From a virus, in IMG/VR virus record IMGVR_UViG_3300035034_000779, positions 1 through 64,000 of that record: a stretch of DNA of 64,000 bases; one strand, 5' to 3'. Numbering within the stretch: the first letter of the stretch is position 1; each line of letters opens with the position of its first letter. Positions 488-24,485 of this stretch are shown in pieces. A model generated the notes under the pieces. It searched no databases. It was not told the origin of the DNA and saw nothing but the letters and a program-made list of their open reading frames with translations. The position numbers were made by a program, and so were the translations under genes.

Positions 488-1115
488 GATGATCTCCATG
501 ATTCCACGCCCATGGATTGATAATTGCTATCCATGGGACATTTTCAGCGTATCCATTACTATGACAACACGCTGTTATTAGTTGAGCTGACGTAGTTGCA
601 TGTATACACATTGGTGCGATAATAAACAAAGCCACAGGAGGATAAATTATCAATACTGAAAGAAAAATTAGAATCCATATCTTAAAAAAATGTAAATTTA
701 ATTTCCGTTGGAATTCACTCTTGATGAAATCTCTAATCAAATTAAGTTCCATTTTAGTTGAATTCATCTTTAAGAATAACACGTTCCAAAATCCTTCAAG
801 CACAGGAGAATGTGGATCACCTTTTTTATCACTATATTTGTGATGCTGTCGGTGTATCAGTGCGTATTCGAGAGGAGTGCCGATCCCAGTAAACAAGCAA
901 CTTAAACTCAATAATTTATTTTGTATGGTGTCTTTATATGTCTTGTGGCCAAAATGTAAATGCAAAATATAATGACTGATCGCTACACTGAGATACCCAG
1001 CTACTATCGCAGGAAATATCCACATCCAATTATAGAAAAAAAATCCTATAACAAAAGAAAAATAGCTTATGGCTAGTATCACCTTTCCTCTATATTTCTT
1101 AAAATTAGTATCCAA
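480..1115 (-). CDS. fatty acid desaturase-like membrane protein (short C-terminus)
   Basis: A di-iron membrane desaturase of the acyl-CoA/acyl-lipid type, expected in the inner membrane. Three histidine boxes are visible: HLHFGH, HRQHHKYSD followed by GDPHSP, and NHGDHH. Hydrophobic stretches flank the first box and lie between boxes two and three. The reading frame stays open upstream to 1268, but that part lies inside the radical SAM gene. No ATG fits, so I place the start at TTG 1115, which overlaps the upstream stop by 11 nt and matches the N-terminus of the paralogue at 1989-2708; GTG 1082 is the alternative. The protein stops one residue after the third box, whereas the paralogue continues for about 22 residues. 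The region after the box is therefore lost and activity is uncertain. Confidence 0.7.
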   Translation of the reverse strand: MDTNFKKYRGKVILAISYFSFVIGFFFYNWMWIFPAIVAGYLSVAISHYILHLHFGHKTYKDTIQNKLLSLSCLFTGIGTPLEYALIHRQHHKYSDKKGDPHSPVLEGFWNVLFLKMNSTKMELNLIRDFIKSEFQRKLNLHFFKIWILIFLSVLIIYPPVALFIIAPMCIHATTSAQLITACCHSNGYAENVPWIAIINPWAWNHGDHHE

Positions 1116-1992
1116 ATTCGTTTTCCTTAACGTGCTCAAAGAAAGGTGCCAGCTTAAAATCTTGAGTGATCCTTCCTCTCCTAATACTATTTGGATCAGG
1201 AATATCAGATAAAGAAGGGCTCCAATCCGTAATTTTAATCCACTGGGTCGATCTCTTCTTTGTTTCATCTAATGGAAAGAGTACGTTGTGTTCTTCGTCG
1301 TAACCTTCAACTTGTTTCCATTGACGTATCCAATCAGGATCTTTTCCAGTAACTTTACCCATGAACTCTATCAATTCATCAAAGGTATAATTGTCTTCTT
1401 TTCCTAAAGAAAACCGGCCAATCTGTCCAACATTGCGGAATCGTAATACACCGGGATAGTTTAACTCATTTTGGAATATATCAATTAACCGTCCAGGCAC
1501 GGGTTCACTTACGCCTTTTTGTATGATACAATTGATATTGATGAACATATTTAAAGAAACGACATTCCTTAATGCTTTCATTTTACGTTCTGCACATTTA
1601 AGTTCATCTGTTATAACATAGATGTTGTCGTCATCAGCGCCGTTGAGACTTATGTTTAAACTGTGCAAGCCCGCGTTTTTAAGCGTCTTACAGTAGTCTA
1701 AATTGCCTAGCCTGAGTCCGTTAGTAAGTATTGTAGGCCTGTGACCTAGCGTGCGGAGAGTAGAAATTATGTCTGGTAGATCTTTGTGCATAGTCGGTTC
1801 TCCTCCCATCAATCGAAACTCTGTGCGCCGAGGTAGCCTCTTCGCTAGATCATAAAGACGATCTAGATCCATATCTGGAATATCTCTATTTGGAATATAA
1901 CAATTGGCACATTCCATATTACACTTATGAGTAATGTCCACTACAAGTGTTTTAAATGTATTTTCTTCTGGTTCAAGTTCATAATAATTCAT
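1105..1992 (-). CDS. radical SAM enzyme, short form without visible C-terminal cluster domain
   Basis: A radical SAM protein of about 295 aa. The CNMECANC motif (Cys24, 28, 31 from the ATG at 1992) binds the 4Fe-4S cluster that cleaves S-adenosylmethionine, and MGGEP is the SAM-contacting motif. The barrel continues through ILTNG and LNISLNG. After the barrel there is no SPASM-like Cys set, unlike most of its neighbours, so it probably has only one cluster. The start at 1992 makes an ATGA overlap with the upstream desaturase stop; an in-frame ATG at 2004 is possible. It lies between the two desaturase genes, so it may act on the same substrate (inference). The reaction is unknown. Confidence 0.85.
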   Translation of the reverse strand: MNYYELEPEENTFKTLVVDITHKCNMECANCYIPNRDIPDMDLDRLYDLAKRLPRRTEFRLMGGEPTMHKDLPDIISTLRTLGHRPTILTNGLRLGNLDYCKTLKNAGLHSLNISLNGADDDNIYVITDELKCAERKMKALRNVVSLNMFININCIIQKGVSEPVPGRLIDIFQNELNYPGVLRFRNVGQIGRFSLGKEDNYTFDELIEFMGKVTGKDPDWIRQWKQVEGYDEEHNVLFPLDETKKRSTQWIKITDWSPSLSDIPDPNSIRRGRITQDFKLAPFFEHVKENEFGY

Positions 1993-2708
1993 TTTATAAT
2001 CCACGGTAAAAAAATCTTAGCTATATCGTACTTACCAAAAACCGAACTTCCTGGACGCACATGATGATTAGAATGATAAGATTCTCCTCCAGTAACTAAA
2101 GATAAGATAGGAATATTAGTTGATCGATCATGTTTTGATTTTTGTTCTCCTATCATATGGTTAACGCTATTGATAAATCCAGTTACATGATACATCAACA
2201 CAGCTGGCATTGAGATTATATAAACTGCCCAATGTCCGATTGCTAGATATCCTAACACCAAATAAATCGTGACCATGCAAAAATACCATTTGTGTTGGAA
2301 CTTTAGCCATGGATCTTTTATAAGATCTGCTATGTACTTCGGTGATATGTTCTTATTAGGAAATATATGGAACCAGGTGTTAAAAAACCCATTCAAAGGA
2401 CTGTGTGGATCTTCATTTGTATCAGACTTAGCATGATGTATACGATGTATTCCAGACCAAGCTATAACTGGACCTAAAAAAGCTATGCTTCCGAAGAAAA
2501 GGAAAATTAATTCCCATGTCTTATTGGTATTAAATGATTTGTGAGTGTAATACCTATGATAGCCAATGCTTGTTCCAATCGTGACTATTAACAAGTAAAT
2601 GATAAATCCATATAATAATCCTGTCCATGAAAATGAATATACTACTCCTCCTATAAAGAGTAGGTGATTCAGTATAGCTAATAACTTAATTTTTGTGTCA
2701 GCTGTCAT
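1989..2708 (-). CDS. fatty acid desaturase (delta-9 acyl desaturase-like)
   Basis: A 239-aa integral membrane di-iron desaturase. All histidine boxes of the stearoyl-CoA desaturase-like family are present: HRYYTH, HRIHHAKSD followed by DPHSP, NSVNH (the extra metal-ligand His), and GGESYHSNHH. Hydrophobic segments near residues 8-45, 70-85 and 135-170 fit a four-helix membrane core. The family inserts a cis double bond (or a hydroxyl) into an acyl chain using O2 and electrons from a ferredoxin or cytochrome; no electron donor gene is visible here. It overlaps the dioxygenase upstream by 11 nt and the radical SAM gene downstream by 4 nt. The substrate could be membrane lipid or an acylated intermediate made by this operon. 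The family assignment is strong, the role is inferred. Confidence 0.88.
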   Translation of the reverse strand: MTADTKIKLLAILNHLLFIGGVVYSFSWTGLLYGFIIYLLIVTIGTSIGYHRYYTHKSFNTNKTWELIFLFFGSIAFLGPVIAWSGIHRIHHAKSDTNEDPHSPLNGFFNTWFHIFPNKNISPKYIADLIKDPWLKFQHKWYFCMVTIYLVLGYLAIGHWAVYIISMPAVLMYHVTGFINSVNHMIGEQKSKHDRSTNIPILSLVTGGESYHSNHHVRPGSSVFGKYDIAKIFLPWIIK

Positions 2709-3558
2709 TTAAAAATAACCTATCCTTTATTATTCTAGAAACTGGTATTCCAAAATTACTATTTGAAACGAATCTATCATTTTCTTCATCGTAGTCAAAC
2801 CACGGAGAAAACCCAACAATCATATTAATCCGGGGGTCTGTAAGTGGATCACTTTTATAACACCCAACCTCATGTGGAATACGGTTATTCCAGATGTATG
2901 CTTTGTCGTATTCGAGTATCTTATCAAACGATGCTTGATTACCTAGATTATCATCTCCATCAAATCTTAAATAATAATTTTCATTTGTCTTAAGGGGTAT
3001 AACTAACCTCAACATCATATACTGAGGTTCATCTATATGCCATCCTCCTTTAAATGTATTTAAGTCAATTTCTCCGGAATATAAATACGCAACACGACTT
3101 CGTAATATTGCCCCTTTTATGCGAGAAAATAACCCGCTAAAATGTTCTTTTATTGTTGAATTTAAATGTCGGAAAGCATATGTATCATAATATGTATTTT
3201 TCATAGTAACTACTCCAGACGCTTCTCGAGAGAAGGAATCTTTTATAAATTTAGATCCAAAAGTTTGATGATATTGGCTCCTGCTTTTATCATTAAACTC
3301 CTTGTTGTAAGTTAATGAAAACCCTCTATAATGCGGAGTTGAATATCCGTGTTGTTTTTGCCATCCTTCAAGCCCATGTAATCTTTCAATCTGTTCAACT
3401 GAAGTTAAAAGATTAGACGTTTTAACTCCGAGTTCACAAACATCTAACTCTTCAAAAATAAAAGGACCAACTCTATCCTCTTCGTTTCCTGGTAATTGTT
3501 TCTTTATAAAACTAAGTATTTCTTTATCTTGAGGTACTTCGTTTACATTTATAATCAT
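2698..3558 (-). CDS. Fe(II)/2-oxoglutarate dioxygenase, aspartyl/asparaginyl hydroxylase-like
   Basis: A 286-aa protein with a C-terminal double-stranded beta-helix oxygenase core. Metal ligands are read as H174 and D176 (GGWHIDEP) and H229 (NNRIPHEVG), with R243 (DPRINMIVGF) placed to bind 2-oxoglutarate. The spacing fits the AspH-like group. The N-terminal 110 residues show no motif I know. The likely chemistry is hydroxylation of a side chain or lipid-like substrate, identity unknown. The ATG at 3558 overlaps the end of the upstream radical SAM gene by 4 nt (ATGA). The desaturase follows with an 11-nt overlap, so the two oxidative enzymes are probably made together. Confidence 0.78.
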   Translation of the reverse strand: MIINVNEVPQDKEILSFIKKQLPGNEEDRVGPFIFEELDVCELGVKTSNLLTSVEQIERLHGLEGWQKQHGYSTPHYRGFSLTYNKEFNDKSRSQYHQTFGSKFIKDSFSREASGVVTMKNTYYDTYAFRHLNSTIKEHFSGLFSRIKGAILRSRVAYLYSGEIDLNTFKGGWHIDEPQYMMLRLVIPLKTNENYYLRFDGDDNLGNQASFDKILEYDKAYIWNNRIPHEVGCYKSDPLTDPRINMIVGFSPWFDYDEENDRFVSNSNFGIPVSRIIKDRLFLNDS

Positions 3559-4631
3559 ATCTTCTTCTTCTTCTTCTTTGGTATTTTGCTATCTGCACTT
3601 GAAACACAAGTCGGTGTAATACACGGCATAGGTGTATCAAATATTTTAAATCCTGTTTTGATATTACCTAATGGTTGATCTTTACATGAATATGAACGCT
3701 TAACACTACCATCCGGTTCTCTTATTATGATACCCTGATATCCTGCATTACAACTCCAGCCTTCAAATTTGTTAAAATTAAAAGCATTAAATCTTTCTGC
3801 TTGATCTATATACCATTTCTTTCCATTAGAATCTTCCATTTCTACTTGCATATTAGAAGGAACGTCTTGAGGGATAGAGATTTTCTGTTTAGGACGATTG
3901 TAAAATTTACTCTTTATTGTTGTAAAATTTTCTTGAGGCATTCCGTTATGAAGTTTATCAAGCATGTCATCTGTATATCCATCTACTATACGAGATGCGG
4001 TCGGATCGCTTTGTGGTTTAAGTGTAACATTGATATTTTGATTGTGAAAGAATAATGCGTTTTCCCATGATTGTTCAAACCATTCTGGTACCATTACCAT
4101 ATTGATAGTTACTTGTATATCTTGTTCTTGAGCAAATATCAATTTGTCTGCAAAGTCTTGCATCTTTTCCGGAGTATTAACATGTTCGGTGTGTAAACTT
4201 GCTGTGATACTAGCACGCTGAAAAGACTTTGCTGTTTCTGTATATTCCTCAAACCATTTCATATTACGAGAACAATTTGATGTCATATGAATTGTTGTTC
4301 CGTTTGTATTAGAAACATCATCTGCTAGGTATTTTAATATATCTAAATAACCCGGATGAAAGGTTGGTTCACCTCCACTAAAACTAAAATGAAAAGAATT
4401 AAATCCATTGTTTCTAGCTTGTCGTTTAATCTCATCTATTGTTGTTAAACAGAGTTCTGTAGGACGGTGATCTTTTCGATCACTCCTGGCATACGGCCAA
4501 CAATATGAACAACGATAATTACAAAAACGACCAAGTAACCAACTCACTGTAAAAAGGTCACGGTGTATCATAGTGCGTTGCCCAAGCCGTACTATATCTT
4601 CAAACGGGATCTTTGTAAAATCATAACTCAT
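3555..4631 (-). CDS. radical SAM enzyme with C-terminal Cys-rich (SPASM-like) region
   Basis: About 358 aa from ATG 4631, which overlaps the upstream gene by 11 nt. CNYRCSYC (Cys37, 41, 44) is the radical SAM cluster and FSGGEP the SAM-binding motif. The C-terminal third has GWSCNAGY, SYSCKDQPLGNI and MPCITPTC, a Cys pattern shared with the radical SAM proteins at 9439-10410 and 16078-17061. I read it as a SPASM-like auxiliary cluster domain. As in those two cases, the gene directly follows a twitch-type radical SAM gene. It ends in six consecutive Lys coded by a run of AAG codons, a basic tail the relatives lack. Substrate unknown. Confidence 0.87.
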   Translation of the reverse strand: MSYDFTKIPFEDIVRLGQRTMIHRDLFTVSWLLGRFCNYRCSYCWPYARSDRKDHRPTELCLTTIDEIKRQARNNGFNSFHFSFSGGEPTFHPGYLDILKYLADDVSNTNGTTIHMTSNCSRNMKWFEEYTETAKSFQRASITASLHTEHVNTPEKMQDFADKLIFAQEQDIQVTINMVMVPEWFEQSWENALFFHNQNINVTLKPQSDPTASRIVDGYTDDMLDKLHNGMPQENFTTIKSKFYNRPKQKISIPQDVPSNMQVEMEDSNGKKWYIDQAERFNAFNFNKFEGWSCNAGYQGIIIREPDGSVKRSYSCKDQPLGNIKTGFKIFDTPMPCITPTCVSSADSKIPKKKKKKI

Positions 4632-5757
4632 TAAACCATTCCTTAAATTCCGGACAATAATCATTAATCTTTATATTACGAAAATTCTCAGTATATTTTA
4701 TATATTCTTTAAACTGCCGAACCTCTTCCACTGTTGGGTCTTTCTTTATCATCTCTTCTATACGAGATAACCATTTATTATCAACTAAATTTTTTGTTTT
4801 ATTTGAATTATGTAATTGCTCTATTATTATTTCTTTTTGAATATTAGGTAATATATGTATCTGTAGATATCTAGGAGAAGTTACTTCTATAAAGTTCTGT
4901 TTTATTCCTTTATTTTCCGCCCATAACATTAATTCTGGTATTCCAAATAACGTCATATTATGCAATGCAGTATCTATCGAAAGTCTAGTGTTTTTGGGTT
5001 TTTCTAACAACAACCTATCAATGTTTTTTTCTATTATATCCCATTTGCTAGGATGCCGAACATAGAATGCTCTAGAACCGATTGAATCAATACTAAGTTG
5101 CATCTTTATCGTCTTAAAGTGTTTGGCTAAGTCAAACCACTTATCTCTTATTGTCGTACAATTGGTACTATATTTTAATTCAACGTTCTTTGCTTCTCCA
5201 GTTTTCACTAGATGTTCTATTATCTTAAAATGATCGTTATCTAGCATAGGTTCGCCGCCGGCAAAATAAATTTCTTTTAAATAAGGGCTATGTTTAATAA
5301 CCTCTTCGGCAACCTCTGCTGATTGATAAGCACTTTCTATTCCTTGTTCAATCCCAATTTGATCACTTGAATCAGGAGAACACATAATACATTTGAGGTT
5401 ACATTTATTACTCAGTCTTAAATCTAAATAAATTAATTCTTTTTTATCGTATATATAATCTCCATGCCAGGACCTTCCTCTTATAAAGTTCCTGAGAGAT
5501 TTTACCCCTTTTGCTTCCTGATTCCAACATTTTTGACATGCTTGGGGTTTTTCTCCTTTTAACATAGACTCTTGAACTTCTTTTATTTGTTTTAAATTTT
5601 TTATTTCTTCAAAAGAATAATCCTTTATATTGATAAACTTTCCATTATCATCAGTTAAAGGCATTGACCGGCAACACATTTTTGCTACTCCTGATGGTTC
5701 TATACAGAAACCAGAAAAAGGAAAAGGACAAAGGGTATTTGAATTATACTTAGACAT
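4621..5757 (-). CDS. twitch-type radical SAM enzyme
   Basis: A 378-aa protein starting at ATG 5757 (a TTG just upstream is not needed). The N-terminal region has Cys10, the pair Cys28-Cys29 and ACQKCW, the layout of the N-terminal twitch (half-SPASM) domain that holds an auxiliary 4Fe-4S cluster in N-twitch radical SAM proteins. The radical SAM motif CNLKCIMC and FAGGEP follow. It ends in DYCPEFKEWFNEL, almost identical to the end of the 64-aa protein encoded just upstream. It is the first gene of a repeated two-gene unit (twitch type followed by SPASM-like type). It overlaps both neighbours. The substrate is unknown; members of this group occur in phages and marine metagenomes. Confidence 0.88.
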   Translation of the reverse strand: MSKYNSNTLCPFPFSGFCIEPSGVAKMCCRSMPLTDDNGKFINIKDYSFEEIKNLKQIKEVQESMLKGEKPQACQKCWNQEAKGVKSLRNFIRGRSWHGDYIYDKKELIYLDLRLSNKCNLKCIMCSPDSSDQIGIEQGIESAYQSAEVAEEVIKHSPYLKEIYFAGGEPMLDNDHFKIIEHLVKTGEAKNVELKYSTNCTTIRDKWFDLAKHFKTIKMQLSIDSIGSRAFYVRHPSKWDIIEKNIDRLLLEKPKNTRLSIDTALHNMTLFGIPELMLWAENKGIKQNFIEVTSPRYLQIHILPNIQKEIIIEQLHNSNKTKNLVDNKWLSRIEEMIKKDPTVEEVRQFKEYIKYTENFRNIKINDYCPEFKEWFNEL

Positions 5758-5944
5758 CAAACCATTCCTTAAATTCAGGACAATAATCTAAAAATTTTAT
5801 GTTCTTTTCTTTTTCTTGTTCTCTAAATTCATTAATGTTGCTATTCAAAAAAGAGGGAATTCGACAACAAGGACTTAGTTTACCCGTCTTGTCTATTGTT
5901 AAATTTAAAAATGGCTGAGAACAAAGTTTCTTATATTGATTCAT
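5750..5944 (-). CDS. miniature radical SAM derivative (both ends kept, middle lost)
   Basis: A 64-aa reading frame with ATG at 5944 overlapping the upstream stop by 14 nt. Residues 7-28 (LCSQPFLNL, GKLSPCCR) match the N-terminus of twitch-type radical SAM proteins. The last 14 residues (FLDYCPEFKEWFDV) match the C-terminus of the next gene. The whole radical SAM barrel between them is missing, so no catalytic cluster can form. It is most simply an internal-deletion relic of a paralogue that kept its frame and its overlaps. A functional small protein, such as a partner that binds the paralogues, cannot be excluded. The intact overlaps at both ends may have protected it, since losing it would break translation coupling. 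Confidence 0.6.
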   Translation of the reverse strand: MNQYKKLCSQPFLNLTIDKTGKLSPCCRIPSFLNSNINEFREQEKEKNIKFLDYCPEFKEWFDV

Positions 5945-7202
5945 ACCAATCCTTTAATCGAGGAGCAACTGAAACAAACTCTTCATCTCTACTTTTATCA
6001 AACCATACTGTGTATTTCTTAAATTCTTTAGCATGGTGAGACCAATCATCCATTTTCATATAACTTATTAGACCTGGTATTTTATGTATCTTGTTTGGAG
6101 AAGATGCATGTGTTCCTTCATATTTGCTTTTGTTTTCTTCGTACCAAGTTAATAACTCATTAGACACTTCATCCTTAATGTGTTGTGGTAAAATCTTTAT
6201 ATTGTAATAAGGTGGATTAGTAAGCAAGTTTAAAAAAGGAAAATTAGTGATATTCTTAAATTTTGAAAAATAATCAAATATTTCAATCAACCTTGTTATA
6301 TTTGCAACTTGTACCGTTGTGTGTATTTCAACATCTATATTAGAATGTGTACCTGCAATTTGATCAATCATCTTTAAATTTTTATCAATCGCTTTCCAGT
6401 TACTTGGATTTCTTATATAACGACATACATCATCTAATCCGTCAACTGAACAATTAATTTTTACCTTCTTAAATTCTTTCCAATAATCAAGGAATTTCTT
6501 TGGAATATTTGTAACATTGGTATTATATTTCAAAGTGATATTCTTTGCATAACCTCTATCTATACAAGCTTTAAGAAGACGGAGTTGTTCCAATATTAAT
6601 GTTGGTTCTCCACCTGTTAGGTATATTAGATCTATTGTAGATAGATTACTTTCTAATAAATCCCATAATTTAGTAGACTCTGGCCAATCCATATTCTTAA
6701 GAAATGCTACATCTTCTGCAGAAATTATTCCAAGTTCTGCAGATTCGTCAACTAATTGGCTACTGGTATAAGGATTACACATCCGGCATCTTAAATTGCA
6801 CAAGTTGCCTAACCTTAGATCAAGATATTGAAATTTATGCGGAGCTTCACCGGTAGACTTAGTCTCTTTGAGAGCAACATCAATTTCTCCAAATTGTTCA
6901 TTATAAACCATTCTAGAACTAATAATTCCATTATCTTCTTCATGGAAACATCTTCTGCAAGTGTCTGGTCTTTCACCATTTAACATTTGTCTTCTTAATT
7001 CCATTAATGTCTTGTTTTTATCCAAGTCACTTACTTGTTTAATGTCTGTTGCTTTTACGAAAGATCCATTATCATGTAATAATTTGTTGTTTCCGGTAAA
7101 GCTATTGCAACATACTCGCAATCTACCAGTTGCATTAGTTGCTAAATGCAACCAAGGTAATGGACAATATGTTTGTTCTGCTTTTGATTTATCCCATGTC
7201 AT
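5931..7202 (-). CDS. twitch-type radical SAM enzyme
   Basis: 423 aa with ATG at 7202, overlapping the upstream gene by 14 nt. The N-terminal twitch Cys set is C13, C31-C32 and CRRC near residues 80-83. CNLRCRMC near residue 130 is the radical SAM motif and LTGGEP the SAM-contacting motif. SVDGLDD in the barrel matches the SIDG or SVDG strand found in most of its paralogues. The C-terminus has no further Cys-rich domain, so the expected clusters are one auxiliary N-terminal and one catalytic. The substrate is unknown. It is closest in appearance to the 19664-20953 protein (TGGEP and the phrases LDLRLGNLCNL and NPSNWK or SPSNWN). Confidence 0.88.
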   Translation of the reverse strand: MTWDKSKAEQTYCPLPWLHLATNATGRLRVCCNSFTGNNKLLHDNGSFVKATDIKQVSDLDKNKTLMELRRQMLNGERPDTCRRCFHEEDNGIISSRMVYNEQFGEIDVALKETKSTGEAPHKFQYLDLRLGNLCNLRCRMCNPYTSSQLVDESAELGIISAEDVAFLKNMDWPESTKLWDLLESNLSTIDLIYLTGGEPTLILEQLRLLKACIDRGYAKNITLKYNTNVTNIPKKFLDYWKEFKKVKINCSVDGLDDVCRYIRNPSNWKAIDKNLKMIDQIAGTHSNIDVEIHTTVQVANITRLIEIFDYFSKFKNITNFPFLNLLTNPPYYNIKILPQHIKDEVSNELLTWYEENKSKYEGTHASSPNKIHKIPGLISYMKMDDWSHHAKEFKKYTVWFDKSRDEEFVSVAPRLKDWYESI

Positions 7203-8367
7203 TTAAAAATTCCTTTGCTATTGTCAAAAAATTAGTATTTCTTGACTTATCTAATATTGAAGTATATTTTAAGAATTGATCTAACAAATGAGACTTGTCT
7301 TCACTCATCATATAATTTCCATTAGTTGTTAAGAATCGATCAATCCTTTTTTGATGATACTTACTCATATCATTTATTGTTTCTCTAAATACATTGTATC
7401 TAGTGATAATTTTTTGTTTAATGTCAATTGGTAATAATTGAGGATTAATAAACGGTGGATCGTATGCTATGTTTCCATGAACTGGCATATCTAATTCTCT
7501 AACAAAATAAGAATAACTCTCGGGTAGGTAATAAGCATTAAATGCCGAAAAACATAATGCAATCCTTCCTTTAAATTTATCACCTAATTCTTTTCTTACT
7601 AATTTTAAGTTTTCTTCTATTGACTTTGTATTTGATTCTGATCGTATGTAATCATTGAGATCCGGATATCCATCCATTGACAAAGATACATCAACACTTT
7701 TATAATCTTTCCAATAATCAAACACGTCCCATTTACCTATCTGCAATCTGCTTAGGTTAGTAGAATATTTAATTTCTATATGACTTGCTTCGCTCTTTAG
7801 TGCATTAAGAACCATATAATGCAATGGATCCATTAAAGGTTCCCCACCCGCAAACTCTAGTATCTCTATGGTAGGTGCAAGGCGCAACATGTTGTAGAGG
7901 AACTCTTCTGTATCGAAAAAATTAGCTTTTTCAGTGTTTATAGAGATATTGCTGTCATAGTACATATTAGAGACAGTATGCCAATCTTTGAGCCATGTAG
8001 TACTCAAATCAGGTTTACATGTACGACAACGAAAATTACAAAGGTTACTAAGTTTAAGTTCAATGACTGGAATCTTAAATGGTTGTTCCGGTAAAAGTTC
8101 AAACTCATAATTTCGATTTTGATTCATAGTTTGTCTCATACTTGTTCCGCCTGAGTCCTCAAGTTGCCAACAAGGCCAGCATTTTTCTGGTCTTTCATTT
8201 GCAAGAAATTGCTTTCGGAGTTCTTTCATCTGTTCTCCGTTCCATATTTCTTCTAATGAATTATCTTTTATATTTCCTAATTTTCCAGGATATCTACAAC
8301 AAGGAAGAACGTCGCCATTCGGACGTGTGCTAAAATGTGTAAATGGCAGGGAACAAAAATTACTCAT
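7189..8367 (-). CDS. twitch-type radical SAM enzyme
   Basis: 392 aa; the ATG at 8367 makes an ATGA overlap with the upstream gene. The twitch ligands are read as C5, C23-C24, C63 and C66; the radical SAM motif is CNFRCRTC (C110, C114, C117), followed by FAGGEP and LSMDG. The phrase LEEIWNGEQMKELRK between the twitch cysteines recurs as EIWNS or EAWNS in several paralogues and probably forms a conserved helix. The reaction and substrate cannot be read from the sequence. Confidence 0.88.
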   Translation of the reverse strand: MSNFCSLPFTHFSTRPNGDVLPCCRYPGKLGNIKDNSLEEIWNGEQMKELRKQFLANERPEKCWPCWQLEDSGGTSMRQTMNQNRNYEFELLPEQPFKIPVIELKLSNLCNFRCRTCKPDLSTTWLKDWHTVSNMYYDSNISINTEKANFFDTEEFLYNMLRLAPTIEILEFAGGEPLMDPLHYMVLNALKSEASHIEIKYSTNLSRLQIGKWDVFDYWKDYKSVDVSLSMDGYPDLNDYIRSESNTKSIEENLKLVRKELGDKFKGRIALCFSAFNAYYLPESYSYFVRELDMPVHGNIAYDPPFINPQLLPIDIKQKIITRYNVFRETINDMSKYHQKRIDRFLTTNGNYMMSEDKSHLLDQFLKYTSILDKSRNTNFLTIAKEFLNDMG

Positions 8368-11795: not shown

Positions 11796-11803
11796 ATTAA
11801 TAC

Positions 11804-13545: not shown

Positions 13546-14554
13546 CAAATTTTTCTTTTAACCAATCAAAATTGTTAATCATTGCAAGGGCCTTTTTATC
13601 ATCCTTGTTTTTTATTCCGTACTCGTTTCCACTACGAGCTCCGTCTATACAATATATACCATATTGCATATCAGCACCAACCGTCATCCAGATTTGTAAA
13701 CGGTCTTGTGTTTCTTTTTCATTTTGTCTTGTTATTGTTCGAGATGACAATTTTACACATTCACGAAAAGCTGATTTCCAAGTGTTAAAAGGATCAGTAT
13801 TAAATTCTGTTAGATTAGAAATATCTTCGTGTATTCTAAATCTATCACTTATGCTAGTAGTCATATCTGGTGTGTTAATATCAAGTGACAAAGTAAGATC
13901 TCTCGGAAAAAGTTTTATTCCACCATATCCGTAAGATAATCCATTAATAGGATTTTTTGACCTCCAGACATGAACGGCGTCTTGTTCCCAAACGGATGGC
14001 AAATAAGAGAAATTAAATTCATTTACAACTATAGCATCAGCATCAACAATCCATAACATTTTAGTATCTGATATTTTTGCTGCTTCTATATGAGCTTGGT
14101 GTATCCCGTTTATCCCGTTTACTCTTTTTGCGCAAGGAACGATCTCAAGTAATTTCTTATAATTCTTATCAGCATTAGGTTCATTGTATGATATAAAAAC
14201 TACATCATATGGATTTGGAGTTGATGCTTCAATTGGAATTTCTTTCTTGTCTACGAAAAACCTATATTCTGCTTCTCGTTTTGATATATTTTTCGTTTTA
14301 GGTATTAAAGATATTCCATTATAATTTCCATTATTGAGAAAAGAATGAACATATTTTTGATCCCATTCTTCTATTTTATAATCAAAATTAAAGTCTTCGT
14401 TTATAATTAGATCATCATAAACTAACCAATACATTTTAGTGAATGTTATCTTGTTGATATTTTCTAAATTAGTTATATTTTTTGCCGTTGGAAATCTTTC
14501 TTTAAGAATATCCCAATTATTATTTCTTTCTCCAAAGAATACAATATCATACAT
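13529..14554 (-). CDS. glycosyltransferase-like protein with internal duplication
   Basis: 341 aa in two similar halves. The C-terminal half (from about residue 118: YDVVFISYNEPNADKNY, CAKRVNGI, VDADAIV, GYGGIKLF) is homologous to the 20955-21878 protein and has a DxD-type metal/sugar-nucleotide motif. The N-terminal half is a degraded copy: YDIVFFGERNNNWD, and KMYWLVYDDLIINEDFNFDY aligning with KMLWIVDADAIVVNEFNFSY, with the first Asp of the DxD lost. The N-terminal half probably no longer binds donor sugar and may be structural. This family is common in marine T4-like phages, and its acceptor is unknown. The gene overlaps the SGNH gene upstream by 8 nt. Confidence 0.6.
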   Translation of the reverse strand: MYDIVFFGERNNNWDILKERFPTAKNITNLENINKITFTKMYWLVYDDLIINEDFNFDYKIEEWDQKYVHSFLNNGNYNGISLIPKTKNISKREAEYRFFVDKKEIPIEASTPNPYDVVFISYNEPNADKNYKKLLEIVPCAKRVNGINGIHQAHIEAAKISDTKMLWIVDADAIVVNEFNFSYLPSVWEQDAVHVWRSKNPINGLSYGYGGIKLFPRDLTLSLDINTPDMTTSISDRFRIHEDISNLTEFNTDPFNTWKSAFRECVKLSSRTITRQNEKETQDRLQIWMTVGADMQYGIYCIDGARSGNEYGIKNKDDKKALAMINNFDWLKEKFDEQCN

Positions 14555-15323
14555 TAGTTAATAATTTCTTTTCAATTATCGTTGCATAATCCTTATGACA
14601 AAGATAACAAGGATGATTATTATCTGTAGCCTTTCTACTATTATACATCGGTTTTGTTATATAACTGTCATTATAATTTTCTATTAATATTTTGTGTACT
14701 ATTTCTTCGTATGAACTAAAATATATCCTAATTCCAAATTCTTTTCCAATTAATATAATATGATCCACTATGTCTAAATAATTCATTAATAAGGTTTCTT
14801 CGTTTATCGATTGATAGTATTGTTTTCTTCTTTTTTCTAATCCATCTTTGTTTAAGGAATTAGTTCCCGGATGTAGATTATAATATCCAGCTTCATTTAC
14901 CATTAGAATCCTATATATACTAGGAAGACTAAAAAATGCCGTTTTAATTTTAAATAGTTGACTAGATATAAGAAATATCCTAGCTATATGCGAGACAGAA
15001 GCGCCCATTACTCCAAAGTTTAATAATGTTTTTTCGGGAAATTTCTCTTGTAATAGAGAAGTACAAACAAGGTCGTCTGGAACTCCAACACCAAAGATAT
15101 TACTACATCCATATATTCCAACAATATGATCTTTCATTTTTTCCGGCCAAGAATTTCTAAATCCTATTTCATTTATATAATAAGTCCATTTTTTATCAAT
15201 AGTAGTTGCATGTTCTTCCCACCTTCCTAGAAATACAGGTCTAGTATTTTTTAGACCCGGTGTTGTTAGATCTTTTAAATCATTTAATTTTATATTAGAA
15301 AAAGATGATTTTATTTTCATCAT
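14547..15323 (-). CDS. SGNH-hydrolase-like protein
   Basis: About 258 aa from ATG 15323 (ATGA overlap with upstream). IYGCSNIFGVG stands where the GDS block with the nucleophile Ser is expected, and NFGVMGAS resembles the glycine/Asn block. A C-terminal DNNHP with the following Tyr could supply the Asp-His of the catalytic dyad. The family includes carbohydrate O-acetylesterases and acyltransferases, fitting the nearby glycosyltransferases. It is paired with a second SGNH-like gene upstream, but identity between the two is low. The family call rests on short motifs. Confidence 0.5.
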   Translation of the reverse strand: MMKIKSSFSNIKLNDLKDLTTPGLKNTRPVFLGRWEEHATTIDKKWTYYINEIGFRNSWPEKMKDHIVGIYGCSNIFGVGVPDDLVCTSLLQEKFPEKTLLNFGVMGASVSHIARIFLISSQLFKIKTAFFSLPSIYRILMVNEAGYYNLHPGTNSLNKDGLEKRRKQYYQSINEETLLMNYLDIVDHIILIGKEFGIRIYFSSYEEIVHKILIENYNDSYITKPMYNSRKATDNNHPCYLCHKDYATIIEKKLLTNV

Positions 15324-16081
15324 AATAATCCAAGTAACTTCATTTCTTTTTCTAATATGGTTGCCCATATCTCATGACCATTTTCCGCATAATGATACCA
15401 ACGGTTATTATCCGTTGGATCTAATTTATAATCAAGCATTAAAGTTTGGAAATAAGAATCATTATAAGAAAAAGGTTTTCTATAATAAATATCTTTTTCT
15501 ATTTCGTTATATCCTACTTCGTCTATTTTGTAATTATTAAAAAAATTAATAGGATCAAATTCGTTTGCCGGCGGAACTATTCTGTCAACTGCGTTAAAAG
15601 CATAATATTTTATACCTTTATTCTTAAGGTATCCGGTTATTGTTAAATGTCGAATAACATGTTCAATCGACAATAATTCATAATTTACAAACCTCAACCA
15701 TACTTTATAAAACTTCCTAAGATTTAAAGTTGCAAATCTTTTCCACGATGACATGTTATGTTGATTAAGAGTAAATCCGTAATACTTTCCGTTCTCTACC
15801 ACATATTCTCTCGGATGACTAGTCCATCCAATTAACACTATGATATCTTCTGATTTATGTCCTTCTGATATTAGCTTATTGAGATTCTTTACTATACTAG
15901 ATTCAATTAATTTATTTGATGCTCCGGCATATGCAATGTTTACCATTGTCATGTTATTCCGTTGTGCAATTTTATTTCCAAAACATCTTTCTAAATCATT
16001 AGGATCTCTATGAGATCCCGGTGCTGTTATTTCGGAGCCATTAGAATGACTACATCCAGCAACTAATAATATTTTTGTCAT
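15320..16081 (-). CDS. SGNH-hydrolase-like protein
   Basis: About 253 aa from ATG 16081, which overlaps the upstream radical SAM stop as ATGA. LLVAGCSHSNGSE is a good block I (nucleophile Ser), NIAYAGASN a block II/III-like glycine-Asn element, and IGWTSHPRE the strand before the next block. RWYHYAENGHEIWA near the C-terminus supplies the catalytic His. It probably removes or transfers an acyl group on a sugar or lipid. No signal peptide is visible, so it would act in the cytoplasm. The two SGNH genes in a row may be an old duplication or may act on successive groups. Confidence 0.6.
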   Translation of the reverse strand: MTKILLVAGCSHSNGSEITAPGSHRDPNDLERCFGNKIAQRNNMTMVNIAYAGASNKLIESSIVKNLNKLISEGHKSEDIIVLIGWTSHPREYVVENGKYYGFTLNQHNMSSWKRFATLNLRKFYKVWLRFVNYELLSIEHVIRHLTITGYLKNKGIKYYAFNAVDRIVPPANEFDPINFFNNYKIDEVGYNEIEKDIYYRKPFSYNDSYFQTLMLDYKLDPTDNNRWYHYAENGHEIWATILEKEMKLLGLL

Positions 16082-17061
16082 GTTATCTCCTTTGACATCA
16101 ATACGTCTGCTAAACAATGACAAACTGTTTTATTACAGATAATACTTTCAGTCGGCCAGTTTATTTTGGTGGTAATATTGCCAAGATGACCTCCTACTCC
16201 ACAGTTGCCCCTTTGCACATTTCCATCATAATGCACAAATAGACTTTCCAGTCCAATTTTACAATTCCAACCATTAAAGTCATTATTCATAGTATTAGAT
16301 ATTTCCGACGCTATCGGGAAATCTAACATTATTTCGTTAGTTTCTGAAATCAAATAAGAATTCAGTACATTATGTCGATATGTATCCGGAAGGTTATTTG
16401 GCCAATTTATGTAGGGTTTTACTTCACGTAAGATGCGTTCTTGTTCTTCGGTGTAATTAATAACACAAAAAGCCTCTCCTATTCCAAAATTGTCCAATAT
16501 ACGGACAATTTCTGCAGAACATTCTATACCGGAATCTTGTATACGTTTAAAAAAATTCATACATTGATCCCAATAATCTGGATGCATCATCACTCGAACC
16601 GTAACACAAGTTACCTTCGCTGCTTCTGTTATTTTCTCAATTAGACTGTCGTCAAATTCTTTTGTGGGCATAAACTCTGGATGATAGCTACATGATAAAC
16701 TACTGATCTTTGGGGCCACATCTTTCCACCACGAAACAGACCTTGCAAAATTGGTAGTTAATACTACCAATCCACCATTGTCGTATATAAGATCTACTAT
16801 TTCTTTAAAAAAAGGACTAACTGTTGGTTCGCCGCCGGAGATGCTACATTGCACTTTACCATAACGATCGAAGCAATCTTTCAGAAACTTTTTAGCATGA
16901 TTCCATTCATAATGATGATTTTTTCCAGTGTGTAAATCTTCAGGACAATAAGAACAACTATTAGTACAGATATTATTCATCACCCATGTAAGATACAAAC
17001 TATTTGATCTATTCTCAATCTTTGTATATTCAATTCCACTTAATGTTACTGGTTTTTTCAT
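16078..17061 (-). CDS. radical SAM enzyme with C-terminal Cys-rich (SPASM-like) region
   Basis: 327 aa. CTNSCSYC (C32, C36, C39) followed by PEDLHTGKNHH, then ISGGEP. The C-terminal region GWNCKIGLESLFVHYDG, RGNCGVGGHLGNI and CNKTVCHC carries the SPASM-like Cys set shared with 9439-10410 and 3555-4631. It follows the twitch-type gene at 17058-18425 with an ATGA overlap, the third instance of the repeated two-gene unit. SCSYHPEF inside the barrel matches FSWHYEHL of the 9439 protein, a feature absent from the twitch-type proteins. Substrate unknown. Confidence 0.87.
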   Translation of the reverse strand: MKKPVTLSGIEYTKIENRSNSLYLTWVMNNICTNSCSYCPEDLHTGKNHHYEWNHAKKFLKDCFDRYGKVQCSISGGEPTVSPFFKEIVDLIYDNGGLVVLTTNFARSVSWWKDVAPKISSLSCSYHPEFMPTKEFDDSLIEKITEAAKVTCVTVRVMMHPDYWDQCMNFFKRIQDSGIECSAEIVRILDNFGIGEAFCVINYTEEQERILREVKPYINWPNNLPDTYRHNVLNSYLISETNEIMLDFPIASEISNTMNNDFNGWNCKIGLESLFVHYDGNVQRGNCGVGGHLGNITTKINWPTESIICNKTVCHCLADVLMSKEIT

Positions 17062-18425
17062 TTTACGTATTCCTTAAATATTTCATCTAGTTTTGGTATT
17101 GCATCCTTATAGGACACTTTTCTATGCTCATCTAAAGTAACCAACATAGTTTTTAATTTAGTTAATTGGAAAACGGAATCTTCTTTGTCCCATTCATTAT
17201 TTAATTCATGTATTAACATTTCAATTTTAATCTTTAAATCAGGAAAGAATTTAATGATATCTCCATTTTCAAGATAATGATTAAGATTATCAATTATCTC
17301 TTGTCTAAATTCCGGAGGTATAATCGATATGCGTTGCTGTTCCGGAAAATTAATTAAATTAATATTAAATGGCCATTCGTTGTAATAAGGATGTTTACTA
17401 CTTTGTTCATCAATATACCAAAACAAATCATGTAATTGAAATATATTCATTATGCTTACCGTTATATTCGTTAATATCTTAATTTCCGTGCCTTGCATAT
17501 AGGTCTTAGCTTCTTCAAAGTTTTCTTTTATTTTATTCCAATTAGAAGGAAACCGTGTATATTCTTGTACCTTTTCTGTACCATCTATACTAGCAATTAA
17601 TTCAAACTTTTTAAAGTTATTCATATTTGAAAGAAATTTAGGATTAAGATTGGTAAAATTACTACTGATAAAAACGGTGATATTTTTAGATATTTTTGTT
17701 TCAACACAATAGGTTAGTATTTTATTGACTATAGGATTAAGAGTTGGTTCGCCTCCTGCAAAACTTAAAACTTCTATCTTTGGTAGCAATATCTTTAATT
17801 CTTCCCAGAATCGATCTGACTCTGCCCATTTAGATTTAGAATTAGCATTCAAAACATATTGTCCTACATTACCTTCCCACACACCAGACTGATTTCCTAC
17901 TATTCTTGAGAATGTTCCACCTATTGTTTTAATTCCATTAAACTTTTCATCTAAGTCTGACAACTCTTTTTCAATCTGAGAAGAATCATAAGCATTGCAA
18001 ATTAGACATTTCAAATTACAAAGATTGCTTGGTTTAAGTTCTATCTTTTTTGGTGAATGTTTTGCTACACCTTCATTGTTTAAAGTATCTTTTACTATCT
18101 GTAATTTATCTCTATCATTTATATGCTCCTTTATACTTCTAGCCCTCATGCTAGATGCACCATCTCTATAACATATTTTACAACCCTTAACTTTAGTTCC
18201 GTTTGATATTTTATTTCTAGTATCAATTACTTTTTTGTTGTTCCAGAATGTATCAAGAGAATTTTTATCATCTAATCTTTTTTCTAAAGATAAATGATCA
18301 TTTTCATTCCAATAACAACATGGAAAAACTACTCCATTTGGTCTTGTGCTTACTTCAAGAAACGGATAAAAACAGAATGTTTCACTCTCTAATATATCTC
18401 TTCTTAACTTATCTAATTCATCCAT
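17058..18425 (-). CDS. twitch-type radical SAM enzyme
   Basis: 455 aa. Twitch cysteines C18, C36-C37 and GCKIC near residue 80; radical SAM motif CNLKCLIC, then FAGGEP and ASIDG. There is an insertion between the radical SAM cluster and the GGEP loop (about 80 residues, including FNGIKTIGGTFSRIVG and VWEGNVGQYV) that is shorter in relatives. ATG 18425 overlaps the upstream stop by 8 nt. It is the first partner of a twitch/SPASM-like pair with 16078-17061. Confidence 0.88.
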   Translation of the reverse strand: MDELDKLRRDILESETFCFYPFLEVSTRPNGVVFPCCYWNENDHLSLEKRLDDKNSLDTFWNNKKVIDTRNKISNGTKVKGCKICYRDGASSMRARSIKEHINDRDKLQIVKDTLNNEGVAKHSPKKIELKPSNLCNLKCLICNAYDSSQIEKELSDLDEKFNGIKTIGGTFSRIVGNQSGVWEGNVGQYVLNANSKSKWAESDRFWEELKILLPKIEVLSFAGGEPTLNPIVNKILTYCVETKISKNITVFISSNFTNLNPKFLSNMNNFKKFELIASIDGTEKVQEYTRFPSNWNKIKENFEEAKTYMQGTEIKILTNITVSIMNIFQLHDLFWYIDEQSSKHPYYNEWPFNINLINFPEQQRISIIPPEFRQEIIDNLNHYLENGDIIKFFPDLKIKIEMLIHELNNEWDKEDSVFQLTKLKTMLVTLDEHRKVSYKDAIPKLDEIFKEYVK

Positions 18426-19671
18426 CTAATATATCCTTAAATTCTGGAAAAACTTTACTAAAATCTGTATGCCTTATTTTGTCAAGTTTGTCAATATAAT
18501 CAATATATTGAAGGAACAAATCTGAATGATCTTCAGAATCCATAAATTCTAATTGACTTTTAATTTTACTAGTCCATTGGTAATTTTTATTTAACTCGAT
18601 ATAACTTTCCCATTTTTCTCTTATTTTATGTTTAATACACTGTGGGAAGATTTGTATATTAAGATAACGAGGCCAGTGTACGGTTCCTGCGTGAAACAAC
18701 CCTTCATGATGCAACTTTCCTATCTTCTTAAAATCCTGTTTAAGTAACTCAGTTGCAAAATCCGGAATATAATATATATTCATAGCATGTATGGTTGCTA
18801 AAATCTTAACATCGATATTATCTGGTGTATTATCTAATCTATTTAGATTAGTTATTATTTGCTGCCAGTCTGCCGGATATCTAACATAATCATGATGTTT
18901 TCCCCATGCATCAATACTTACCATCAATTCAACAAACTTAAATTCTTTCCAAAGATCTATTATTTCTTCAGTTAATGTAGTTCCATTTGTGTGATAACGT
19001 AATTCAATATTTTTACTATGCCCTGATTCAACTAATTTTTTTATTAATCGAAGATGTTCTTTAATTAATAATGGTTCTCCGCCGGCAAATATAATGTGGC
19101 GTATATTAGAAAACATACCGTTAAAATCAGCCCATAATTTTTCATTTTTATACCAATCAAATCTTGTTGTATCAATGTCTGCTTTGTGTTGCCAATCCCA
19201 TTTAGCTTCAGTTTCAAGTATATCCTTTAGTTTTTTAGCATTGTTTAACCACATACTGCTATCTTGAGGACGGCACATCACACATTGTAAATTACAGGTA
19301 TTACCTAATCTAAAATCTAACGTAACTAAATCTTCATTTAACGTTCCGTCAACGTCGGTTGCTTCAATTAGACTATCAATCTTTTCTTGCCCTAATTTTT
19401 TAATCCATAGATTATTTTCATTTATACGATGGCTTCTAATTCCAACTGCTTCTTCCTTGTAACAAGATTCACATGCTGAAACTTTTTCTCCGTTTAACAT
19501 CTTAACACGGGCTTCTTTAAAATGATCACTATTCCAGATTTCAGAAACAGTGTTATCATTAAGATTTAACTTATGACTATTCTTTGCTACACAACAAAGT
19601 AAGGCGCTACCATCTGTCCATGTTGCCATATGTGTCCAAGGTAGAACGCAAAAAGTTTTTGAGTTATTCAA
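18418..19671 (-). CDS. twitch-type radical SAM enzyme, TTG start
   Basis: 417 aa. Twitch cysteines C8, C26-C27 and ACESCYKEE; radical SAM motif CNLQCVMC followed by RPQDSS; FAGGEP; VSIDAWGK. No ATG lies near the expected N-terminus. A TTG at 19671 with AAGGAG about 7 nt upstream (inside the end of the previous gene) gives an N-terminus (KTFCVLPW) that matches the paralogues, so I take it as the start. The family phrase EIWNSDHFKEAR is present. It aligns best with the 10407-11795 protein. Substrate unknown. Confidence 0.87.
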   Translation of the reverse strand: MNNSKTFCVLPWTHMATWTDGSALLCCVAKNSHKLNLNDNTVSEIWNSDHFKEARVKMLNGEKVSACESCYKEEAVGIRSHRINENNLWIKKLGQEKIDSLIEATDVDGTLNEDLVTLDFRLGNTCNLQCVMCRPQDSSMWLNNAKKLKDILETEAKWDWQHKADIDTTRFDWYKNEKLWADFNGMFSNIRHIIFAGGEPLLIKEHLRLIKKLVESGHSKNIELRYHTNGTTLTEEIIDLWKEFKFVELMVSIDAWGKHHDYVRYPADWQQIITNLNRLDNTPDNIDVKILATIHAMNIYYIPDFATELLKQDFKKIGKLHHEGLFHAGTVHWPRYLNIQIFPQCIKHKIREKWESYIELNKNYQWTSKIKSQLEFMDSEDHSDLFLQYIDYIDKLDKIRHTDFSKVFPEFKDILDG

Positions 19672-20953
19672 AATTTAACTCCTTTGCTAGATCTGGTATA
19701 GAATTAGTAAAATTTTCTTTCCTTGATTTGTCTAATGCTTTTGTCATAGTTATAAAATTTTGATAAATCTCTTTGTGATTATCTCTCAATGGTCTTCCAA
19801 ATAAATTTACTATTCCATTTATACTATTTTGTGTTATATGGTCTTCAATTTTATTCTGTTGTTTAAAGGCTAAAAGGTTTTCTATTCCTTTTTTTCGTAT
19901 TTCTAAAGGTATAATAGTTACATCTAAATATGTTGGATGATCATTTATCAAAAAATCAACACTAATAGATTTATTATATTCTTTTGATACTTGATTAGCA
20001 TACTCAAGTATGTTATGACAATCTAAGATATTATAGACTTGAATTACTGGACTCATTCCAAGTCTTACATTAGACAAGGATGCTAATTTTCTAAAATTAG
20101 TATCAACTTTGTTCCAATTACTAGGAGATCTAATATAATCATTTACTGATCCTATACCGTCAATACTGCAATTAATCTTTATACTTTTAAATTTTGAAAC
20201 TAAGTCAAGAAATTTATCAGTTACGTTAGTGCAATTGATGTTAAAGAATAATTCTATTTGATCGTTATATCCTGCTGCAACACACTCTTCCATAAATCTG
20301 TAATTGTTCTTAATAAGAGTAGGTTCTCCACCTGTCATATAAACTTTTTGAAGCTTAGGTATCATTCCTATAATTTCATTCCATAAAAAATTACTATCAA
20401 AAACAACTTCTTCTTCTTTTAAATGTATTGGATTATTTCCAAATTCAGAAGTCCAAACGGATTTATATCCTTCATCTTGTTCATACAAAGGAAAATGTTC
20501 TTTAGCAATTTGGCTACTATTAAATGGATTACACATACGACATTTTAAATTACAAAGGTTACCTAGTCGCAAATCTAAATATACAGGAGGCAATTTAATC
20601 TTCATATCATTTTCGACAGCTTCTTGCACATAATCATAAAATGATTCGCCTAAACGATGCTTCCATTCGTTTGTCATCATTTCACGAAAACTTGTTTTGC
20701 CAATATCTTCTTGCTTATAACAATGACTACAAGCTGTAACCTTTTTACCCTCTATCATTGCACGCCTTACTTCTACCATGCTTTCGCTGTTCCAGGCTTC
20801 CTCAATACTAGATGTTCCAACTGCTAACTTTTTTCCATTTTCGTCTCTAAGTATAGCTTCTGGACCAGAAGCTATACAACAAAATCGTATAAATGTATCT
20901 GTGTTGAGCATAATACCTATAAAAGGCATTGCGCAAAATGTTTTTGATTCCAT
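19664..20953 (-). CDS. twitch-type radical SAM enzyme, first of the array
   Basis: 429 aa. Twitch cysteines C7, C25-C26 and ACSHCYKQE; radical SAM motif CNLKCRMC followed by NPFNSS; MTGGEP; CSIDGIG. It is the promoter-proximal radical SAM gene of the operon and lies one nucleotide after the stop of the glycosyltransferase-like gene. An insert of about 30 residues after NPFNSS (YKSVWTSEFGNNPIHLK) is specific to this copy. Substrate unknown. Confidence 0.88.
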   Translation of the reverse strand: MESKTFCAMPFIGIMLNTDTFIRFCCIASGPEAILRDENGKKLAVGTSSIEEAWNSESMVEVRRAMIEGKKVTACSHCYKQEDIGKTSFREMMTNEWKHRLGESFYDYVQEAVENDMKIKLPPVYLDLRLGNLCNLKCRMCNPFNSSQIAKEHFPLYEQDEGYKSVWTSEFGNNPIHLKEEEVVFDSNFLWNEIIGMIPKLQKVYMTGGEPTLIKNNYRFMEECVAAGYNDQIELFFNINCTNVTDKFLDLVSKFKSIKINCSIDGIGSVNDYIRSPSNWNKVDTNFRKLASLSNVRLGMSPVIQVYNILDCHNILEYANQVSKEYNKSISVDFLINDHPTYLDVTIIPLEIRKKGIENLLAFKQQNKIEDHITQNSINGIVNLFGRPLRDNHKEIYQNFITMTKALDKSRKENFTNSIPDLAKELNFE

Positions 20954-24141: not shown

Positions 24142-24485
24142 AGTTCGGTTATTCCTTTAACTGAGCGATTCTTTCGAAGCTTATCATATTCTGTTCTAAA
24201 TTCGTTAGTTGATGAAAAATAAAGATCCATAATTTCTTGAAGAAACTGGGAAATATCAGTTATATCAATTGGTGTTCCATTATCGTCTATTAACGTAACA
24301 GATTCAAGTCCTCTATTAACCAACATATCACAAAAAGTCATACGTTGTTCGGTGGCAGTAAATTGTCCACCGCCGTAATAGTAGATATTATTTTCTGCAA
24401 ATTTTTCACTTAATAATCGTATCTGATTATTTAAAGTGACAGTATAGTTAGAAAATTCTAACGCCTTTTCAAGTCTTTCGTCCAT
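24138..24485 (-). CDS. small hypothetical phage protein
   Basis: 115 aa with a strong Shine-Dalgarno (AGGAGG, 6 nt before the ATG at 24485), stronger than most in this operon. It reads as a compact alpha/beta protein: LNNQIRLLSEKFAENN, YYYGGGQFTATEQRM, TLIDDNGTPIDI. Small proteins with this look occur in marine T4-like phages beside virion genes; I know no function. It is the first gene of the accessory operon, downstream of the fibre genes, and its ribosome binding site suggests independent translation initiation. Confidence 0.72.
   Translation of the reverse strand: MDERLEKALEFSNYTVTLNNQIRLLSEKFAENNIYYYGGGQFTATEQRMTFCDMLVNRGLESVTLIDDNGTPIDITDISQFLQEIMDLYFSSTNEFRTEYDKLRKNRSVKGITEL

Follow-up and report, generated by a model that had tools for sequence, protein, structure and literature searches.

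The window analysed here covers bases 1–64,000 of the 75,838-base virus record IMGVR_UViG_3300035034_000779, and it carries an array of 13 radical S-adenosylmethionine (rSAM) genes adjoining phage tail and fibre genes. Sequence comparison with related phages indicates that the array has a fixed core, consisting of a glycosyltransferase (GT), a methyltransferase-like protein and the rSAM proteins rS9 and rS8, together with single-copy rS2 further along, and that variable rSAM genes are placed around it. Counterparts of this core were found in chromosomes of Bdellovibrionota. A high number of rSAM genes in a phage is already known, and the array is ordinary for its phage group; its anatomy appears to be new. 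No description of the conserved core, its chromosomal counterpart or its sugar-enzyme company was found in the literature searched, which mostly did not extend to subscription papers. With a confidence slightly short of even, we read the array as a late carbohydrate-tailoring island for an unusual sugar or cyclitol, the most likely acceptors of which are the fibre proteins of the phage's own virion.

The major capsid protein of the record is 72% identical to that of Vibrio phage 2.275.O and 67–69% identical to those of GAP32, CBB, BF, and PA5oct (67% for gp23 of PA5oct); by sequence, it is closest to the capsid proteins of jumbo phages of the T4 superfamily. Synteny with a 330-kb contig (G011) also extended over the region between the fibre genes and the capsid gene, the latter being 82% identical. 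Because of this capsid affinity and synteny, the record is regarded as a fragment of a jumbo myovirus. Thus, the label "phage", given in an earlier note made from the letters of the window, was correct, though the record represents only part of the genome, and the array may extend beyond the start of the contig. The phage appears to be marine, as judged from its relatives (contigs in bacterial bins of ocean metagenomes) rather than from a source label.

The earlier note had described 13 full-length rSAM proteins with an intact CxxxCxxC motif on one strand. PF04055 matched the record 13 times; every match falls between positions 1507 and 20566 on the minus strand, and none contains an internal stop. 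One CxxxCxxC was present in each of the 13 proteins. The assignment of eight of them to the N-twitch type also agreed with the model NF033640 (N_Twi_rSAM; curated cut-off 170 bits), a family whose name carries no function: eight proteins matched it from end to end, seven of them exceeding the cut-off (283–418 bits) and rS6 falling just short of it (150.3 bits). The rS8 protein fell under the Pfam cut-off of PF04055, yet scored 417.7 bits with NF033640. Invariant N-terminal auxiliary-cluster cysteines and the core motif were common to all eight proteins, and Pfam SPASM was detected N-terminally in several of them; their divergence was too high for a joint profile search, which yielded no patterns. 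The classes proposed for the other five proteins were reproduced as well. A SPASM-like C-terminus was common to rS2, rS7, and rS10, the C-terminus of rS9 had a SPASM-like set of cysteines, with CGNxGDP replacing GGEP, and rS1 was short. The relic noted at 5740–5930 proved to be a single frame in which an N-twitch N-terminus is fused to an N-twitch C-terminus, as seen from the frame translation; it shares a 71-nt repeat (75%) with the 3' end of rS3. From position 57,445 down to 480, all genes lie on the same strand, with overlaps at 28 of the 37 junctions and a biggest gap of 170 bp.

Most of the 13 proteins had their nearest homologue in another phage, with up to ~80% identity, and the paralogues within the window reached only 24–31% identity. 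An origin of the array by tandem duplication was therefore rejected: its genes were brought together from families that are old and separate, rather than arising through recent duplication. No close homologue of rS1 was found in the fetched phage loci.

The order of the core genes was counted in 66 phage loci having sufficient upstream sequence; here and below, counts are of loci and not of independent lineages, many loci being near-duplicates. The rS9 gene stood ahead of rS8 in all 66 loci, and the GT, the methyltransferase-like gene, and rS9 occurred together in 59. Exactly one copy of rS2 was found in 29 of the 42 phage records, several of the remaining records being short fragments. When the model of the core GT was compared with known structures using Foldseek, RmlT, WrtF, K4CP (chondroitin polymerase), and ppGalNAcT were the best matches (E down to 4e-5, probability 1.00), and the modelled fold is thus of the GT-A type. 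Its DxD-like motif reads VDGDN in most homologues, whereas the window copy has VDADA. Profile searches against PDB sequences returned nothing for the core GT or the methyltransferase-like protein, and among annotated phages the core GT had zero matches and rS8 three weak ones.

A pattern scan with rS8 only recovered 99 IMG/VR stretches, mostly with 65–80% identity among the matches listed. The 41 related records contained 2–25 rSAM genes apiece. In G011, every rSAM gene fell within 47–89 kb of the 330 kb, forming a 42-kb array, and in a 307-kb contig (G028) all except one were inside ~22 kb spanning the contig ends. This clustering rules out that relatives hold only scattered single genes, a possibility raised in the earlier note. 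The active-site residues are also kept in relatives, as CxxxCxxC was present in 620 of the 622 full-length rSAM open reading frames (ORFs) of the fetched loci, and both exceptions start at a locus edge. These ORFs form 77 families at 35% identity, which indicates a reservoir of dozens of uncharacterised rSAM families. PF04055 detected no rSAM gene in Vibrio phage 2.275.O and one weak match in GAP32. The heavy Fe-S cost that had been supposed for such an array received some support from an A-type Fe-S carrier in three of the 25 records of the phage group (G015:105650, G022:44341, G028:104781).

The Bdellovibrionota homologues were 51–62% identical for rS8, 54–64% for rS2, and 42–48% for rS9. 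Their clusters (e.g., L112, L114, L119, L189) include the GT, rS8, rS2, usually rS9, and sometimes the methyltransferase-like gene; unlike the phage islands, they are chromosomal, have a shuffled order over a few kb, and mostly lack fibre genes. The smallest chromosomal cluster, GT-rS8-rS2-rS9, was found in one genome, and in one genome a 26-kb island held ~14 rSAM genes; rS2 was present in 22 of the 369 Bdellovibrionota genomes. Mis-binned phage sequence is an unlikely source of these matches: G042, G045, G046, and G050 have no Gp23, and the flanks of L112, L119, and L189 read as ordinary chromosomal genes. L106, L107, and L116, on the other hand, probably represent phage contigs that were placed in bacterial bins. 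On a contig of a Bdellovibrionales metagenome-assembled genome (L189:7060-19512), a phage-type fibre-associated protein, the small protein, two GT8-like proteins, GT2, and rSAM genes are encoded directly after rS8-GT-rS2 and genes that we take, from their sequence, to be trmD, rimM, pheS, and pheT. A bacterial chromosome may here have captured a block of phage genes, or the capture may have gone the other way. On the phylogenetic trees, the rS8 proteins of the phage group formed one clade and the phage rS2 proteins another, placed beside or among Bdellovibrionota sequences. This topology fits a single transfer of the core between phages and Bdellovibrionota; since the root of the trees was weak, the transfer could have gone in either direction.

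In related phages, the same gene run just upstream of the core encodes a StrB1-like inosamine-phosphate amidinotransferase (best PDB match StrB1 of streptomycin synthesis, 8e-104, with GGxHC kept), a TobZ/GdmN/NovN-like carbamoyltransferase, a DegT/StrS-type, perosamine-synthase-like aminotransferase, a UDP-sugar dehydrogenase, an NDP-sugar epimerase, and a cytidylyltransferase. Among the 44 phage loci of at least 18 kb, 21 had at least one of these sugar-tailoring genes. In L061, for example, the genes run from a UDP-sugar dehydrogenase through a small ORF, an aminotransferase, an amidinotransferase, a carbamoyltransferase, an rSAM gene, the GT, the methyltransferase-like gene, a further rSAM gene, and rS9 to rS8. 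Between GT and GT2, G011 has an amidinotransferase, an aminotransferase, and a dehydrogenase, and the window has two SGNH-like and four rSAM genes. No membrane segments were predicted in 293 of the 306 protein families of the loci, and three or more in only four families. Machinery for a lipid-linked surface glycan is thus not evident, almost all families of the loci being soluble and polytopic ones rare. The island begins directly past tail genes whose homologues in PA5oct carry a flag for mass-spectrometric detection. In PA5oct (a Pseudomonas jumbo phage, Arenbergviridae), the order of the tail genes is identical up to the fibre-associated protein; however, that phage has neither the island nor any rSAM gene.

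From the GT-A fold, the sugar enzymes of the relatives, the solubility of the proteins, and the position next to the tail genes, we infer a cytoplasmic, late sugar-tailoring pathway, with late expression and a sugar as the rSAM substrate. In such a pathway, the core GT, the methyltransferase-like protein, rS9, rS8, and rS2 would assemble an unusual sugar or cyclitol and transfer it to its acceptor, and the variable rSAM proteins and their partners (amidino-, carbamoyl-, and amino-transfer, NDP-sugar oxidation, desaturases) would vary its structure from phage to phage. Within the infected cell, the target would be the fibre proteins of the phage itself, and the benefit might be changed receptor binding or protection of the virion. 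Fibre proteins are regarded as the likeliest target, because the island follows the tail and baseplate genes co-directionally and its enzymes are almost wholly soluble. For the acceptor as such, the virion is a tentative choice, held with less confidence than the pathway, and the host surface appears the less probable of the two. Of the interpretation in the earlier note, a single, real and intact array adjoining tail and fibre genes is supported, with modification of the surface or the virion as its probable function.

Several observations weigh against tailoring of the fibre proteins by a sugar pathway. The structure nearest to the rS8 model was SkfB (8e-6), followed by CteB and SuiB, which are sactipeptide maturases. 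The window contains no amidinotransferase, carbamoyltransferase, aminotransferase or UDP-sugar dehydrogenase genes, and the first three are missing from the whole record. The core also occurs in bacterial chromosomes with no fibre gene nearby, so that the fibre is not necessarily the target. In addition, the glycosyltransferases of many phages serve to change the host surface.

The structural neighbours of rS8 would suit a modification of proteins or peptides similar to that of ribosomally synthesised and post-translationally modified peptides (RiPPs), in which rSAM enzymes would introduce cross-links or epimerised residues into a virion protein or a small peptide. A conserved ORF of ~74 residues adjoins the core in 74 loci (51 distinct sequences; e.g., L013:7686-7901, L020:8603-8833), with the methyltransferase-like gene on one side of it and an rSAM gene, in most cases rS9, on the other. 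The protein, with the consensus ATnnNI.qFNK.AHHNS.nWYkaVi.WY...yGdLPSk.GPGk and no PHROG match, could serve as such a substrate, and this reading is kept because of it and of the proximity of rS8 to SkfB. However, neither the record, with or without the window, nor any of the Bdellovibrionota clusters has this ORF; it is conserved over its full length, unlike a leader with a variable core, and was judged not to be precursor-like. The cellular clusters have no conserved small ORF, and the small ORFs of 19 cellular and related loci shared nothing beyond pairs. The absence of an obvious RiPP precursor, remarked on in the earlier note, was thus confirmed for the window and extended to the Bdellovibrionota clusters. 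No RRE/PqqD domain was detected in the ten rSAM proteins scanned, a fold-level RRE still being possible, and SPASM/twitch folds are also found in nucleoside-acting enzymes such as BlsE. Altogether, we consider peptide modification unlikely. The same small protein has a part in a more detailed proposal, which is rather doubtful: the core pathway of marine jumbo phages and Bdellovibrionota would make a new radical-chemistry class of sugars on the fibre proteins of phages or of bacterial surfaces, the dozens of swappable rSAM families would give each phage a specific glycan, and the 74-residue protein, present in most relatives, would act as a carrier or adaptor.

Remodelling of the host surface during infection, by alteration of lipopolysaccharide or capsule or by exclusion of competitor phages, has been proposed for the pelagimyophage island and is about as improbable here as peptide modification. 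In type and position, the present island resembles the host-recognition cluster of pelagimyophages, which contains cassettes of GT8 and rSAM genes (PMC7029224; Mosig region), and the two desaturases could target host lipids. Hardly any polytopic membrane proteins were predicted, though, and no flippase, polymerase or lipid-carrier transferase was evident, but export functions could be borrowed from the host. A soluble aminocyclitol or amino-sugar natural product, directed against competitors or acting as a host effector, would account for the amidinotransferase, carbamoyltransferase, aminotransferase, glycosyltransferase, and radical SAM enzymes of the relatives, which resemble aminoglycoside tailoring. 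This explanation is quite unlikely, as it leaves the position of the island after the fibre genes unexplained; no enzyme forming a cyclitol, no exporter, and no resistance gene came to light, none having been searched for systematically. General support of host metabolism (cofactor or anaerobic metabolism), as suggested for phage CP220 (PMC2853527), is very improbable, given that all genes were far under the NCBIfam cut-offs of known cofactor equivalogs and that 77 divergent families and a tail-operon position are involved. DNA hypermodification, considered because Campylobacter phages modify guanine, was set aside as well, since the island lies in the tail operon and has no recognised nucleotide-modification genes.

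The earlier note had seen novelty in the number of rSAM genes, and this claim did not hold. The Campylobacter phages CP220 and CPt10 (Firehammervirus) encode 11 and 12 rSAM proteins, five of them in one interchangeable ~10-kb module with an amidinotransferase, as published in 2010 (PMC2853527). They resemble the present phages in their many rSAM genes and in the amidinotransferase, which in CP220 is 32% identical to the enzyme of the marine arrays; the CP220 module also encodes proteins with a glycosyltransferase fold. However, no homologue of core rS8, rS2 or GT was found in them, an rS9-like match was only 24% identical, and their remaining rSAM genes are dispersed over the genome. A T4-like ocean genome, TARA_ERS488813_N000010, was reported in 2017 with 12 rSAM genes and an Fe-S carrier (PMC5332604); the main text of that paper does not describe clustering, a core module or function. 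Its length is 183 kb, in contrast to 307–330 kb for the relatives studied here, and the comparison is by description only. The pelagimyophage host-recognition island, described in 2020, lies in the tail region, is hypervariable, and carries GT8 glycosyltransferases as well as rSAM cassettes (PMC7029224). In Pelagibacter phage Mosig EXVC030M, this region also has an aminotransferase, a carbamoyltransferase, and a desaturase, but only two rSAM genes were detected with PF04055. The pelagimyophage cluster sits between VrlC and gp14; the island of the window follows fibre and gp10-like genes, with no VrlC or gp14 identified. Viromes of the Tasman Sea are enriched in rSAM and glycosyltransferase genes (PMC7150976). 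Phage rSAM clusters have thus been noted since 2010 without explanation, and the core, its chromosomal counterpart, and the sugar enzymes together amount to a definite, testable pathway. Glycosylation by radical chemistry is a possible virion trait in ocean phages.

The features of the window are listed in the table below. The partner labels of the earlier note stood in part: glycosyltransferase agreed with the GT-A fold and desaturase with PF00487, whereas 2-oxoglutarate (2OG) dioxygenase, SGNH, and methyltransferase had no Pfam support above the cut-off.

Table. Radical SAM array and neighbouring genes in the window (pLDDT, predicted local distance difference test; MTase, methyltransferase; ESI-MS/MS, electrospray ionisation tandem mass spectrometry).
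Feature	Positions	Strand	Evidence
Fatty-acid desaturase-like protein 2	480..1268	-	PF00487 1.5e-9
rS1, short radical SAM	1105..2004	-	PF04055 68.8 bits; CxxxCxxC
Fatty-acid desaturase-like protein 1	1989..2708	-	PF00487 1.1e-16
Hypothetical protein (2OG-dioxygenase label unconfirmed)	2698..3558	-	no Pfam/PHROG match
rS2, core radical SAM, SPASM-like C-terminus	3555..4664	-	single copy in 29/42 phage records; 59-63% identity to Bdellovibrionota homologues
rS3, N-twitch radical SAM	4621..5760	-	NF033640 311.7 bits
Relic, internally deleted N-twitch gene	5740..5930	-	frame translation
rS4, N-twitch radical SAM	5931..7202	-	NF033640 374.6 bits
rS5, N-twitch radical SAM	7189..8367	-	NF033640 341.4 bits; N-terminal SPASM PF13186 1e-15
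rS6, divergent N-twitch radical SAM	8364..9446	-	NF033640 150.3 bits, cut-off 170
rS7, radical SAM, SPASM-like C-terminus	9439..10410	-	PF04055; at most 65% identity in other phages
rS8, core N-twitch radical SAM	10407..11795	-	NF033640 417.7 bits; model pLDDT 81
rS9, core SPASM-type radical SAM, CGNxGDP	11804..12868	-	upstream of rS8 in 66/66 loci; 46-48% identity to Bdellovibrionota homologues
Core methyltransferase-like protein	12868..13548	-	62/66 phage loci; Rossmann-MTase-like motif by eye, no Pfam match
Core glycosyltransferase, predicted GT-A fold	13529..14554	-	model pLDDT 91; 60/66 phage loci
SGNH-like protein 1 (unconfirmed)	14547..15368	-	no Pfam match
SGNH-like protein 2 (unconfirmed)	15320..16123	-	weak DUF6071 5e-5, under cut-off
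rS10, radical SAM, SPASM-like C-terminus	16078..17061	-	PF04055
rS11, N-twitch radical SAM	17058..18425	-	NF033640 282.8 bits
rS12, N-twitch radical SAM	18418..19671	-	NF033640 401 bits; 72-73% identical in two phages
rS13, N-twitch radical SAM	19664..20953	-	NF033640 360.4 bits
GT2, core glycosyltransferase paralogue	20955..21878	-	alignment; at most 72% identity in other phages
GT8-like glycosyltransferase a (motif only)	22472..23308	-	DxD by eye; homologues in 19 phage loci, one Bdellovibrionales chromosome
GT8-like glycosyltransferase b (motif only)	23308..24141	-	homologues in 16 phage loci, one Bdellovibrionales chromosome
Small conserved protein, between fibre gene and glycosyltransferases	24138..24485	-	16 phage loci, one Bdellovibrionales chromosome
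Tail/fibre-associated virion protein	24522..25412	-	30% identical to PA5oct EST35_0123 (flagged ESI-MS/MS)
Tail collar / gp10-like protein	28767..30854	-	PF07484 9e-14

Further along the tail operon, positions 31484–46591 form one ORF of 5,035 codons, the position of which matches the giant PA5oct protein EST35_0128 (flagged ESI-MS/MS). The A-type Fe-S carriers of G015, G022, and G028 are consistent with the Fe-S genes already reported for T4-like phages from the ocean. PP-loop ATPase-like genes (ATP_bind_3/QueC-like) were observed at L018:12041-12685 and in 12 more loci, often adjoining an rSAM gene. A 3.5-kb contig titled Thermoplasmata archaeon (L128) encodes an rS8 homologue with 42% identity; its binning is doubtful, because this rS8 groups with the divergent phage copies of L087 and L092. 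In Vibrio phage K566 (L104:11615-20402), rSAM and related genes, some of them annotated as hypothetical, are clustered; the phage record has weak similarity to rS8 and is a possible culturable model.

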